From Chromobacterium amazonense (GTDB lineage: Bacteria; Pseudomonadota; Gammaproteobacteria; Burkholderiales; Chromobacteriaceae), in contig NZ_MKCR01000018.1 in assembly GCF_001855565.1 (NCBI RefSeq), positions 1-52,760 of the forward strand: 52,760 nt of DNA, in the 5' to 3' direction. Under the pieces are notes generated by a model that was given only the letters and a program-made list of their open reading frames with translations, was not told the origin of the DNA and did not search any database. Shown here piece after piece: positions 12,344 to 16,304 of this stretch (its first letter is position 1; every line of letters begins with the position of its first letter). The position numbers and the translations under genes are program-made.

Positions 12344-12591
12344 TGTTACTTTTTTCGGACAGTCTGTTCATGCGAATTGGGCCGATTTCTTAACAGAATT
12401 TCATATAAAAACCTTGTTTAGAAATTTCTATTTAAAACAAATATGACTGCGACGCGAGGCGGCTACAAACCCTTACATGCCGAAACCTAAAGCGCGCTGA
12501 AAGCGCAGGCGATCGCTGCCATGCTGTGATCAGCGGGAGTTTGCTTCGGACTCCGGAAACATCGAGAAGACAGATTCCAAGGAGATGCAAG

Positions 12592-13110
12592 GTGGAATGG
12601 AAGAAACAGGGCTGCAAATGGATAGCCTTGATGCTGGCGGCCGCCAGCCTCGGCGCTTGCGTGGTCACGCCGCCGCGCGCCCAGGTGGTGTATCAGCCGG
12701 CATCGGTGCGCCTGGACTTGCCGCGAGAATGGCGGCCGGCGGAGCACCCGTACTACCTGCATGCGATGAGCGATTTGCGTCAGGCGCGGGCTTATCTGGC
12801 GCGGCCGGATTATCCGCAGATAGCCGATGACGAGCGCCGCGCGGTAGGCGAGATCGATGCCGCGCTGAACGAGATGCAGCGCGCCGCGATTGAGGATGGC
12901 AAAGACCCCTGGCGCTATGAGCAGCCCGACGCGCGCATGAGCCCCACCGACCGCTTCCACAAGGCGCTGGAGTTGCTGGATGCCGCCCGCCGCGACGCCA
13001 GCCATCAGGAAGACGATCCGTGGGTGCGCGATCTGCAGCATCGCATCCTTCATCACATAGACGGCGCCCACCATGCCGTGCAGCAGGCTATCAAGGACGC
13101 CCTGCGCTAA
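12592..13110 (+). CDS. Putative lipoprotein, tandem paralogue A
   Basis: A 172-residue protein of unrecognised family. The GTG start at 12592 is chosen because AAGGAG lies seven bases upstream and it gives a clean lipoprotein signal with lipobox LGAC (Cys23). The mature region is Tyr/His/Arg-rich and helical. It shares with the next gene EHPYYLHAMSDLRQAR, LARPDYPQ, DDER and EDGKD blocks along the whole length. It is probably anchored in the outer or inner membrane facing the periplasm. The pair reads away from hcnA. No function can be assigned. Confidence 0.75.
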   Translation: MEWKKQGCKWIALMLAAASLGACVVTPPRAQVVYQPASVRLDLPREWRPAEHPYYLHAMSDLRQARAYLARPDYPQIADDERRAVGEIDAALNEMQRAAIEDGKDPWRYEQPDARMSPTDRFHKALELLDAARRDASHQEDDPWVRDLQHRILHHIDGAHHAVQQAIKDALR

Positions 13111-13146: not shown

Positions 13147-13650
13147 ATGAAACTGCGTGCAATGTTCACTGTTCTGGCTTTTGCAGCCGCCGGTAACGCC
13201 ATATTGAGCGCCCCCGCCTGGGCCGATGGCTGGCGCGAGGGAGATCCGTGGAACTGGCAGCAGCACCAATGGCATCCGGAAGAGCACCCGTACTATCTGC
13301 ACGCGATGAGCGATTTGCGCCAGGCGCGCGATCTGTTGGCCAGGCCGGATTATCCGCAGGTCATGGATGACGAGCGCCATGCCGTGGATGAGATAAACAA
13401 GGCGATGCGCAAGATGCGCGACGCGGCCATCGACGATGGCAAGGACATCTACGACCGCATGCCGCCGGATGCCCGCTGGCGGCCGGAAGACCGCTTTCAC
13501 CAGGCCAAGGAACTGCTGGCCAAGGCGCGCCAGGACGCGACCCATCGCGAGGATGATCCATATCTGCGCTCGCTGCAGCGCGACATTGTCCATCACATCG
13601 ACCAGGCCCAGCGCGCCATTGATCAGGCAGTCAACGACGCATTGCGCTGA
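13147..13650 (+). CDS. Putative periplasmic protein, tandem paralogue B
   Basis: A 167-residue homologue of the preceding gene, co-directional and 36 bases downstream, so probably co-transcribed. It has a standard Sec signal (about 26 residues, cut after AWA) instead of a lipobox, so this copy should be soluble. The ribosome site GAGGAG precedes the ATG by six bases. The shared core has repeated amphipathic helices with conserved Pro-Tyr-Tyr-Leu-His and Asp-Asp-Glu-Arg blocks. Function unknown; tandem duplication followed by a change of anchoring is the simplest history. Confidence 0.78.
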   Translation: MKLRAMFTVLAFAAAGNAILSAPAWADGWREGDPWNWQQHQWHPEEHPYYLHAMSDLRQARDLLARPDYPQVMDDERHAVDEINKAMRKMRDAAIDDGKDIYDRMPPDARWRPEDRFHQAKELLAKARQDATHREDDPYLRSLQRDIVHHIDQAQRAIDQAVNDALR

Positions 13651-14745: not shown

Positions 14746-14774
14746 GGCTGCCTAAAAAACGGGCAGCCTTTTTT
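14746..14774 (+). terminator. Rho-independent terminator after asparaginase
   Basis: GGCTGCC (14746-14752) pairs exactly with GGCAGCC (14762-14768), followed by TTTTTT. The loop contains the A-tract of the first unit of the repeat array that begins here, so terminator and repeat core overlap. Confidence 0.8.
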
Positions 14775-15240
14775 CATGCTTGGCATTCAATGACTTGCCG
14801 AGCGTGTCCACAACGCTTCCACATTTTTCTACACCGGAGATGTGGGCAAGCGCCTCGTCCGGCGCGGAAGATGGAAGCGGCGGCTTGCATTGCCGCCTGC
14901 CTAAAAAATAGTCAGATCGGCCTGGGTAAAGCAAAATCAGCCACTTGCGCTGTTTGTCCACAATCGGCGCGCAGGATTGTGTACCGTAGGTGGGGATTTC
15001 TCTGGAGGGGCGGGGGGATGGATTTGCCTAAAAAATAGGCGATCAGATTTTTTCTTTGGATTTCATCGGCTTGCTCAAGCTATCCACAGCGGGTCCACAC
15101 AACGCTTCACTTGAACTGGTGGAAAAGTTCCCGCTTGATTAAAAAATAGACGGGTGGGCAAATGTCTTATTCCATCAAGCCTTTGGCTGGGTTTTCCACA
15201 GCCGGCTCACAGCGCTGTCCCCGTCTATTGTTAAAAACGC
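14749..15240 (+). repeat. Regular repeat array, block 1 (units 1-4)
   Basis: Four units of 111-149 bp. Each begins with TGCCTAAAAAATAG or a variant (14749, 14898, 15025, 15136). Then 58 or 59 bases later comes a DnaA-box-like TTGTCCACA/CTATCCACA/TTTTCCACA motif (TCCACA at 14807, 14957, 15083, 15195). In units 1, 3 and 4 a second TCCACA or CTCACA follows exactly 11 bp on. In units 1-3 a reverse GTGG motif lies 33-36 bp after the first box. Unit 4 is bracketed by a 10-bp inverted repeat (15145-15154 and 15220-15229). No open reading frame fits. Confidence 0.8.
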
Positions 15241-15261
15241 GGAAAGCCTTTGCCGTCGCGG

Positions 15262-15267
15262 TATAAT
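15262..15267 (+). promoter_or_regulatory. -10 element before the NadR-like gene
   Basis: A perfect TATAAT lies about 64 bases upstream of the chosen start of the NadR-like gene, directly after repeat block 1. No good -35 hexamer is seen at the right distance, so an activator or a protein bound to the array might help recruit polymerase. Confidence 0.45.
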
Positions 15268-15330
15268 GGCGGGCTTGGCCGAGCGATGGCCGGCGCGTCC
15301 TGCCGGCGGCTTGGCGCGGATGCGAGGGCA

Positions 15331-15882
15331 ATGCGGCAACAATATGGCGACAAGCCGATCCGGGTGGCGATAGTCGGCCCGGAGTCCAGCGGCAAGAGCA
15401 CATTGGCGGAAGATCTGGCGCGCCGCTTGCGCGGGCTAGGGTGGGCGGCGACCTGGGTGGAGGAATATTCCCGGGCCTATTACGCCGATAAGCCCTATGT
15501 CTCCACGCCGGCCGACATCGAGGCGATCGCCGCCGGCCAGCTGGCGGCGGAGGACGCGGCGGCGGCTGGCAGCCGCATCCTGCTGTGCGACACCACGGTG
15601 CTGACCTGCAAGATCTGGGCGGAAGTGGCCCACGGCGCGGCTTCGGCGGCGCTGCTGGCCTTGTACCGGCCGCATGATTACGACTTGACGCTGCTGGCCT
15701 GCCCGGACATTCCCTGGCAGCCTGATCCATTGCGCAGCCACCCCACCCAGCGCGACTGGCTGCTGGCGCTGCACAGGCAGGAACTGGCGCGGCAGGGCAT
15801 CCAAGCCGTGGAATTGCGCGGCGAGCGCGAGCCGCGGCTAGAGAGGGCGCTGCGGTCGGTCTTGGCCCTGTTGGCTGCCTAA
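15331..15882 (+). CDS. NadR-type ribosylnicotinamide kinase-like ATPase
   Basis: A 183-residue P-loop protein resembling the C-terminal kinase domain of NadR (AAA_28 family). Walker A is GPESSGKST near residue 15; EYSRAYY, LLCDTT and DIPWQPDPLRSHP are the other shared blocks. The family phosphorylates nicotinamide riboside in NAD salvage, but NMN adenylyltransferase and DNA-binding domains of full NadR are absent. The start at 15331 follows GAGGGC and lies downstream of the TATAAT; ATG 15286 is an alternative. The stop codon is embedded in the core of repeat unit 5. The gene sits inside the repeat array. Confidence 0.75.
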   Translation: MRQQYGDKPIRVAIVGPESSGKSTLAEDLARRLRGLGWAATWVEEYSRAYYADKPYVSTPADIEAIAAGQLAAEDAAAAGSRILLCDTTVLTCKIWAEVAHGAASAALLALYRPHDYDLTLLACPDIPWQPDPLRSHPTQRDWLLALHRQELARQGIQAVELRGEREPRLERALRSVLALLAA

Positions 15883-16088
15883 AAAATAATCAGGGGCGAA
15901 ACGGGCAGGAAAAACAGCGGCTTGCCGCGCTTGTCCACAGCGCCTCCACAAGATTGTTCGCCGCGAGCGTGGATAGCCCGGCGCGGCTGCCTAAAAAATG
16001 GGCGGCAAGAAAAACATCAGACAGATTAAGGGCTTGGCGGCCTTGTCCACAGGCCGCTCACAAGCCTGTCCAGAATGAGTGTGAAAAA
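15876..16088 (+). repeat. Regular repeat array, block 2 (units 5-6)
   Basis: Two further units, starting with TGCCTAAAAAATA at 15876 and TGCCTAAAAAATG at 15988, 112 bp apart. Each has TTGTCCACA with TCCACA exactly 58 bases after the unit start (15934, 16046). A second TCCACA or CTCACA comes 11 bp later. A reverse GTGGATAG or GTGTGAAAA lies 33-35 bp after the first box. Unit 5 starts inside the last codons of the NadR-like gene; unit 6 runs up to the start of the S4 gene, so it may also shape that gene's leader. Confidence 0.8.
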
Positions 16089-16304
16089 ATGAAAGAAACC
16101 TTCAAGCTGTCCAGCGAATACATCGCGCTGTGCGATCTGCTCAAGGCTTGCAACGTCTGCCATTCCGGCGGCGCCGCCAAACATTTCATCGGCGAGGGCA
16201 ATGTGCGGGTGGATGGGCAGGTTGAGCTGCGCAAGACCTGCAAGATCCGCGCCGGCCAGCAAGTCAGCGGCGATGGCTTCAGCATCGTGGTCGAGGCCGC
16301 CTGA
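16089..16304 (+). CDS. Small S4-domain RNA-binding protein (YbcJ-like)
   Basis: A 71-residue protein made up almost entirely of one S4 RNA-binding fold: YIALCDLLKACNVCHSGGAAKHFIGEGNVRVDGQVE, with a closing basic strand. The length equals E. coli YbcJ (70). Such proteins bind structured RNA, possibly ribosomal. The start at 16089 gives the family length; its ribosome site is weak (GAGTG). The longer frame upstream runs through repeat units 5-6 and is not credible as protein. The next gene starts one base after its stop. Confidence 0.82.
   Translation: MKETFKLSSEYIALCDLLKACNVCHSGGAAKHFIGEGNVRVDGQVELRKTCKIRAGQQVSGDGFSIVVEAA

Follow-up and report, generated by a model that had tools for sequence, protein, structure and literature searches.

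In a stretch of Chromobacterium amazonense DNA of 52,760 bp (contig NZ_MKCR01000018.1; hereafter, the window), positions 14749-16088 hold an array of six units of about 110 bp, each composed of a Fis-type site, an integration host factor (IHF)-type site and four DnaA-box-like 9-mers. We consider it likely, with a probability of about two in three, that this array is a tandem, multi-copy set of compact DnaA-reactivating modules of the kind represented in Escherichia coli by DARS2 (DnaA-reactivating sequence 2). A preliminary description of the array had named a DnaA-reactivating site among several conceivable roles, and the geometry of the last three boxes of each unit, which is that of the E. 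coli DARS cores, possibly supports this choice.

A fixed arrangement of sites in the units of the array

All six units were found at the A-tract starts given in the preliminary description, and in all of them a TCCACA box followed the start at a fixed distance, which had been put at 58 or 59 bases. The order of elements is the same throughout: a Fis-type 15-mer dyad (TGCCTAAAAAATA) is followed after 20-21 bp by an IHF-type 13-mer and, 6 bp further on, by four DnaA-box-like 9-mers, three of which are in forward orientation (gaps of 2 and 3 bp), while the fourth is reversed and follows after 5 bp. In what follows, the boxes are called 0, III, II and I in this order. The second TCCACA/CTCACA reported 11 bp further on and the reverse GTGG/GTGTG motif were each present in 5/6 units, with GCGCA in place of the former in unit 2 and TGTTA in place of the latter in unit 4. 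The motifs described earlier were thus confirmed, but the Fis-type nature of the A-tract dyad, the intervening IHF-type site and the DARS plan had gone unnoticed.

To place the boxes without a profile, we scored each offset for its match to seven bases of the DnaA box in 105 units from 19 genomes of the genus (a single opposite-strand match to the position weight matrix, of 15.1 bits, was excluded). Mean matches were 4.53 at +11, 4.55 at +23 and 5.77 at +37 in reverse orientation, as compared to a background of 1.66 and to 3.80 at the best remaining offset (reversed +24); the score at offset 0 was high by anchoring. As the box scores peak at 0, +11, +23 and reversed +37, the unit geometry comprises four box positions, and their resemblance to DnaA boxes, proposed earlier, holds well above the background. 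The alignment of 79 of the 105 units, from 14/19 genomes (alignment A2), and its column statistics revealed six short conserved blocks per unit at fixed distances from each other.

The combination of the dyad-type 15-mer with TCCACA at the fixed spacing occurred six times in the array and was absent from both strands of the remaining 51,160 bases of the window. Similarly, all three copies of the exact A-tract string GCCTAAAAAATA in the 4.0-Mb genome were at the array locus, and a profile search of this genome (E up to 0.1) returned the six units of the array, two matches at one other place and one weak match. The many scattered copies that had been feared were not there, and a scattered repeat could be ruled out on these numbers.

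The last three boxes have the geometry of E. coli DARS cores

In E. coli MG1655 the DARS1 core is TAATACACA-3-TTATCCACA-5-reversed TTATCCACT, and the DARS2 core is TTCTTCACA-3-CTATCCACA-5-reversed TTATTCACC. Boxes III, II and I of the units are identical to both cores in orientation and gaps (9-3-9-5-9). The preliminary description knew of no described element of this form; with the E. coli DARS cores, whose layout is that of the last three boxes, such an element does exist. The part of the review PMC5742627 available to us states that DARS1 and DARS2 share their box spacing and that box I is opposite in orientation. Exactly the two III-II pairs given above, on which our reading of the E. coli sequence agrees, are listed as bound by DnaA in chromatin immunoprecipitation sequencing in the available part of Table 1 of PMC11317965, a source whose accessible text also reports that DnaA favors box pairs 2 or 3 bp apart. 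The tandem "double DnaA boxes" described there, one of which is possibly weak, resemble those of the units, but in the units three boxes stand in a row (gaps of 2 and 3 bp) with a reversed fourth, in addition to Fis- and IHF-type sites.

A scan for the best core with the DnaA consensus alone recovered the DARS1 core with 2 mismatches and the DARS2 core with 3 in E. coli stretches of 6-7 kb. In the 7-kb stretch with E. coli datA, the best 9-3-9-5-9 core had 6 mismatches, a value reached by 3/112 random 3-kb sequences, none of which had fewer. This bears on the possibility that the units act as datA does, i.e., that IHF-bent DnaA complexes stimulate the hydrolysis of DnaA-bound ATP. Like the units, datA consists of intergenic DnaA boxes and an IHF site whose spacing is important, and at the 112-bp spacing of neighboring units the IHF-type site of the second unit lies between DnaA boxes, as that of datA does. 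Unlike the units, datA lacks a good DARS core and is, in the portion of PMC10380432 that we could consult, a sequence with a single IHF site and no reported Fis site, located near oriC. As the array differs from it in both position and geometry, we regard a datA-like function as improbable.

We also searched E. coli with profile R2, built of 46 chosen units of the genus and of other families, all within the order. On 20 kb of E. coli sequence and without filters, the DARS1 core ranked second of 30 matches (E 0.027) and aligned without gaps to model positions 78-111, and the DARS2 core ranked seventh (4.5 bits, E 0.49). DARS1, which lies upstream of uvrB, is a single copy with near-consensus boxes and, according to the section of PMC5742627 at hand, releases ADP in vitro without additional factors.

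Fis-type and IHF-type sites precede the boxes

The 15-mer has G at -7 and C at +7 in 79/79 units and Y-R at both ±(3-4) steps in 78/79, and its center is A/T-rich in either direction (AAAAAA, TTTTTT or AAATTT). Just outside it, G at -8 or C at +8 was found in none of the 79 units. In the part of PMC4784862 available, these features are given as the rules for high-affinity Fis sites, and the pattern GnnYAnnnnnTRnnC, taken from a figure legend of PMC8682772, fits 64/79 units. The A-tract dyad is, by these features of its sequence, a predicted Fis-type site rather than an RNA hairpin.

The second block reads W-A-T-C-A-R-N4-T-T-R. It was scored against WATCAANNNNTTR, which we take to be the IHF consensus, with position 6 relaxed to R after inspection of the data. 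With at most one mismatch, it was present at the fixed place in 39/79 units and anywhere in 41/79, versus 31/395 composition shuffles. Each of the 16 genomes tested encoded a protein with a match to E. coli Fis (41-51% identity), and IHF-beta was found above the cut-off in the genome of the array. Binding of DnaA, IHF and Fis to the units is what these motifs would predict.

For DARS2, PMC4245941 and PMC5742627 state that IHF and Fis sites are needed at defined distances from the core; the former also gives the order core-IHF-Fis and reports that a 5-bp shift of the sites reduces activity. The units likewise have, at the level of motifs, both sites on one side of the core at a fixed distance, in the same order. 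This side is that of box III, as it appears to be in DARS2 from the peak coordinates in the accessible part of PMC11317965.

The conserved sequence does not behave as an RNA element

The conserved dyad could alternatively reflect RNA structure, the units being members of a small structured RNA family or part of an RNA element in the ansA-nadR-S4 region. The dyad of unit 1 is located inside a terminator-like hairpin detected by a terminator scan; four such matches were found in the region, versus 2.5 in shuffled sequences. Units 1, 4 and 6 folded better than shuffles on the + strand (z -6.4, -2.9 and -4.1), as did unit 4 on the - strand (z -4.1), and over all 79 units the column pair 12-22 could pair in 48, a slight excess over the 39.9 of shuffled columns (64/2000 shuffles reached 48). 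However, on the + strand the folding of units 2, 3 and 5 was not better than that of shuffles (z -0.3, -1.2 and +0.5). Among the 64 units whose dyad has no T-run behind it, pairing did not differ from that of shuffled columns, full pairing being possible in 21/64, and an Rfam search of the array gave no match. Compensatory pairs, assessed for the dyad alone, were not seen. The absence of a pairing excess outside the terminator copies, the inconsistent folding and the lack of an Rfam match led us to reject an RNA hairpin or small RNA, and bear out the earlier claim that the conserved entity is a protein assembly and not a transcript.

A length change in relatives also speaks against RNA. Four genomes from two further families of the order, f31 and f49, gave 12 matches, 11 of which had a net insertion of 10-12 bp, i.e., about one helical turn; this may be read as one extra 11-bp box step, as would be expected of a helical row of proteins. 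Taken together, we consider the RNA explanation very improbable.

The sites are located in the middle of the replichore

The 29 sites mapped in 23 genomes that are complete or nearly so lay between 0.32 and 0.98 of the way from dnaA to its antipode, 27 of them at 0.30-0.85, and none in the first 30% of the replichore. This count cannot be read as a clean probability, because the genomes are related and only recorded positions were used; of one group of 22 genomes, the set left out G274, with no dnaA match, and G059, G426, G437 and G359, with no recorded unit position. In E. coli, for which we assumed the coordinate of oriC, DARS1 is at 0.66, DARS2 at 0.41 and datA at 0.20. The sites thus lie between the origin and the terminus, as the DARS do.

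This location is also relevant to the possibility that the array is a sink, its clustered boxes sequestering DnaA and thereby delaying initiation, while Fis and IHF do no more than stabilize the complexes. There are 24 DnaA-box positions in the 1.3 kb of the array, with box 0 the strongest, and any cluster of bound DnaA titrates it to some extent. Titration in E. coli is reported in the part of PMC12371093 that we could consult, but there the boxes are concentrated near oriC, while the array is not origin-proximal. Moreover, titration needs neither the conserved reversed box, nor the fixed distance between the IHF-type site and the boxes, nor the Fis-type dyad. Titration as the main function therefore seems unlikely, although it is the least unlikely of the alternatives considered here.

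The array is conserved in the genus and recurs in relatives

The locus of the window aligned in 19/19 genomes of the genus. The array has six units in 11 of them, five units in 7, including one in which a contig end truncates it, and four units in the remaining genome. The spacing is kept in these relatives, with 112 bp between units 5 and 6 in 19/19 genomes and 111-112 bp for the next pair upstream in 19/19. Pairs spaced by 112 bp recurred in Aquitalea, Vogesella and Crenobacter, while the spacing of neighbors varied in other families. In the 11 six-unit genomes, units at the same position were 74% identical across genomes (73 columns), and units at different positions within a genome 56%. 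This difference indicates that the array positions are orthologous and that the array is old and has not been homogenized. Unit 6 was the most conserved, with 89% identity across genomes.

Profile R1, based on sequence only, detected units in 19/19 genomes of the genus, in 61/61 genomes of the family (E up to 0.01) and in 178/399 genomes sampled from the order (E up to 0.001), with 1-9 matches each; the E-values of the profiles are rough, and the family and order names of the relatives are those that we presume. A degenerate pattern run on a collection of named genomes retrieved 44 stretches, 40 of which came from Chromobacterium, Aquitalea, Vogesella, Paludibacterium, Crenobacter, Craterilacuibacter, Iodobacter, Chitinimonas, Parachitinimonas, Chitinilyticum, Gulbenkiania, Laribacter and a "Neisseriaceae bacterium". 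The other four were from a Xenophilus sp., an unplaced proteobacterium, a "Tenericutes" metagenome-assembled genome and a Gordonia record, and some of them may be due to chance or misbinning. The exact unit pattern had no match in a collection of viral contigs, by which a phage origin was ruled out.

With R2, matches were obtained in 47/369 genomes sampled from the class (the genome of the array, one of the order and 45 others) and in 46/299 sampled from the phylum, 27 of which, with weak matches, were outside the class. In 5.1 Mb of first-order random sequence, a hidden Markov model made from the alignment of R2 gave no score above 13.2 bits, so the weak matches outside the class are not noise of base composition. 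We fetched 38 loci of other orders and classes, namely 28 of the class search (all those from L171 to L198) and 10 picked by hand from the phylum list. In 29/38 the profile match itself contained a core with at most 4 total mismatches, and 31 loci contained 33 such cores; one of the loci (L191) has a core free of mismatches and the same 5-bp spacer as E. coli DARS1. Relative to the 33 cores, a Fis-type 15-mer was at -66/-65 in 20 cases and at any other offset in at most 1, and an IHF-type site was at -30 in 15 cases and at any other offset in at most 4. As these loci were chosen by a profile that contains the same parts, the offsets are only partly independent, and hence suggestive rather than proof.

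A rather tentative reading, to which we give somewhat less than even odds, is that the compact Fis-IHF-DnaA module may be the ancestral and most widespread form of DARS in Pseudomonadota, single-copy in many orders and amplified in tandem in the Chromobacterium family and in other families of the order, where recharging of DnaA would be multi-copy and tuned by dosage. The split into DARS1 and DARS2 in E. coli would then be derived.

Neighboring genes probably do not account for the units

A NadR-like kinase gene of the AAA_28 type (15331..15882, + strand; PF13521, 97 bits) lies between units 4 and 5, as a neighbor outside the module, and the S4-domain gene starts at 16089, so that the units could act on these genes as DnaA-dependent regulators, or serve as a secondary origin of replication. 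Box I of unit 6 is directly in front of the S4 start codon, and in the 37 of 61 family genomes whose loci were examined, the S4 gene was near in 37/37 and nadR in 36/37. However, in one genome (G013) two unit pairs have no nadR between them, and in another (G007) other genes, which from their translations appear to form an efflux operon, separate units 1-4 from nadR, with the units kept; a similar gap of about 4 kb was seen in G011. Because the units stay in G013 and G007, regulation of the NadR-like kinase, one of the roles proposed in the preliminary description, is not supported as their purpose by these gene orders. In addition, 17 loci from other families of the order (L087, L095-L110) matched none of the neighboring genes. 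As to an origin, R1 had no match in the dnaA loci of seven genomes of the genus, a comparison by similarity that was the sole origin check. The oriC of E. coli resembles the units in its rows of weak DnaA boxes with IHF and Fis sites but differs from them in having a duplex unwinding element and, in the part of PMC10380432 consulted, head-to-tail boxes with no head-to-head II/I pair. We do not favor a secondary origin, and either role appears highly unlikely.

Agreement and disagreement with DARS2

E. coli DARS2, upstream of mutH, is present once and measures 455 bp; its regulatory region of about 400 bp contains two IHF sites and several Fis sites. A unit takes up about 110 bp, with one Fis-type and one IHF-type site at fixed short distances, and occurs in six copies. 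The units also have an additional strong box 0, 2 bp from box III, and weaker boxes III and II.

Several of these observations weigh against a DARS2-type function. The Fis and IHF sites of DARS2 are spread over 400 bp rather than 110 bp, and the strongest box of the units, box 0, has no counterpart in the DARS cores. In the window, boxes III and II have 2-5 mismatches to TTWTNCACA, as compared to 0-1 in the E. coli DARS (by box, I has 0-3, III 2-5 and II 2-4), even though the box columns are highly conserved across the genus. The IHF match is imperfect in 66/79 units, 2/29 sites are beyond 0.85 of the replichore, and 221/399 genomes sampled from the order had no match at E 0.001. The genus profile R1 with default filters had no match in the E. 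coli DARS loci, and the top E. coli match of R2 (E 0.012) fell outside the DARS cores, at a site just upstream of mutH (L054:2087-2153, - strand). Finally, DnaA, IHF and Fis parts also occur together at oriC, and DnaA and IHF parts at datA. The site upstream of mutH comprises a Fis-type A-tract and a TTTTCCACA box and is outside the known DARS2 core.

We nevertheless place the array with DARS2-type sites, to which it corresponds in geometry, associated motifs and position; its box strength agrees only in part, and ADP release would be expected only by analogy. If the units work as DARS2 does, Fis would bind the 15-mer and IHF the 13-mer, and both would bend the DNA. DnaA would load onto the strong box 0 and then onto III and II, forming a head-to-tail row with gaps of 2 and 3 bp, and another DnaA molecule would occupy the reversed box I. 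The head-to-head contact between DnaA on II and on I would make ADP-DnaA give up its ADP; such a head-to-head II-I pair drives ADP release at DARS2, according to the passages of PMC4245941 and PMC5742627 available. The freed DnaA could take up ATP again and become able to start replication, and the six modules in the middle of the replichore would be a multi-copy recharging station.

According to PMC4245941, Fis and the core of DARS2 are confined to gamma-proteobacteria close to E. coli, and PMC5742627 describes the core-IHF-Fis spacing of DARS2 as conserved in E. coli-proximal beta- or gamma-proteobacteria. Because the latter already mentions them, we do not claim DARS in beta-proteobacteria as new; what we do claim as new is the compact module and its multi-copy arrays, and among open-access publications on DARS or DnaA-reactivating sites we found no title about such an element. 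The reactivation of DnaA has been worked out in E. coli, in the literature cited here. Should our reading be true, some bacteria carry DnaA-recharging sites as multi-copy arrays. A short three-site module found in arrays across an order raises the questions of how many recharging sites a cell needs, why their number varies and which geometry is essential, and a single unit would offer a small substrate for structural studies of the ADP-release complex.

Coordinates of the predicted sites

All boxes were predicted from sequence; boxes 0, III and II and the IHF-type sites are on the + strand, and box I is on the - strand. In unit 1, the Fis-type dyad GCCTAAAAAACGGGC (14750..14764), which fits GnnYRnnnnnYRnnC with 0 mismatches, is the one within the terminator-like hairpin, behind the asparaginase gene. 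It is followed by the IHF-type site ATTCAATGACTTG (14785..14797; 1 mismatch to WATCARNNNNTTR), box 0 GTGTCCACA (14804..14812), box III GCTTCCACA (14815..14823), box II TTCTACACC (14827..14835) and the reversed box I TTGCCCACA (14841..14849).

Unit 2 has the Fis-type 15-mer GCCTAAAAAATAGTC (14899..14913), an IHF-type 13-mer without mismatches, AATCAGCCACTTG (14935..14947), and box 0 TTGTCCACA (14954..14962). Its box III position, CGGCGCGCA (14965..14973), is weak, with 5 mismatches, and box II, TTGTGTACC (14977..14985), and box I, AAATCCCCA (14991..14999), have 3 each. The Fis-type 15-mer of unit 3 is GCCTAAAAAATAGGC (15026..15040), its IHF-type site TTTCATCGGCTTG (15061..15073; 2 mismatches) and its box 0 CTATCCACA (15080..15088), with boxes III GGGTCCACA (15091..15099; 3 mismatches), II CGCTTCACT (15103..15111; 4) and I TTTCCACCA (15117..15125; 3) behind it. 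Unit 4 combines the Fis-type 15-mer GATTAAAAAATAGAC (15137..15151) and the IHF-type site CATCAAGCCTTTG (15173..15185; 1 mismatch) with a perfect box 0, TTTTCCACA (15192..15200; 0 mismatches), two weaker positions, III CGGCTCACA (15203..15211) and II CTGTCCCCG (15215..15223), with 4 mismatches each, and box I TTTTTAACA (15229..15237; 1 mismatch).

Downstream, the Fis-type 15-mer of unit 5, GCCTAAAAAATAATC (15877..15891), overlaps the 3' end of the NadR-like gene and precedes the IHF-type site AAACAGCGGCTTG (15912..15924; 1 mismatch), box 0 TTGTCCACA (15931..15939), box III GCCTCCACA (15942..15950; 3 mismatches), box II TTGTTCGCC (15954..15962; 3) and box I CTATCCACG (15968..15976; 2). In unit 6, the Fis-type 15-mer GCCTAAAAAATGGGC (15989..16003) and the IHF-type site GATTAAGGGCTTG (16024..16036; 2 mismatches) are followed by box 0 TTGTCCACA (16043..16051), boxes III CCGCTCACA (16054..16062; 4 mismatches) and II CTGTCCAGA (16066..16074; 3), and box I TTTTTCACA (16080..16088; 0 mismatches), which ends immediately 5' of the S4-domain start codon.

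Related sites elsewhere and other features of the window

The second place in the same genome (L111:3472-3687, + strand; G000:C32:107971-108186) has two units 111 bp from each other, one strong and the other weak, next to a gene that, read from its translation, encodes an ABC-F ATPase; the same gene is beside the units of L113-L115. In another order (L174), a unit-like match is behind a gene 47% identical to this ABC-F gene, a hint of ancient synteny. The weak third match (L112:1849-1939, - strand; G000:C31) combines a Fis-type 15-mer with a terminator-like hairpin and a core that is DARS-like but has no box 0, and L116-L118 resemble it. Outside the class, two loci of different families (L202 and L204) have unit-like matches and further tandem DnaA boxes beside what is apparently the same NAD-dependent epimerase gene.

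The window also contains two riboswitches on the - strand, an M-box (ykoK) magnesium riboswitch at 108-275 (143.9 bits) and a yybP-ykoY manganese riboswitch at 2472-2616 (61.3 bits). Two adjacent open reading frames on the + strand (12526-13110 and 13147-13650) encode similar proteins with the common stretch HPYYLHAMSDLRQAR and are probably a tandem duplication.

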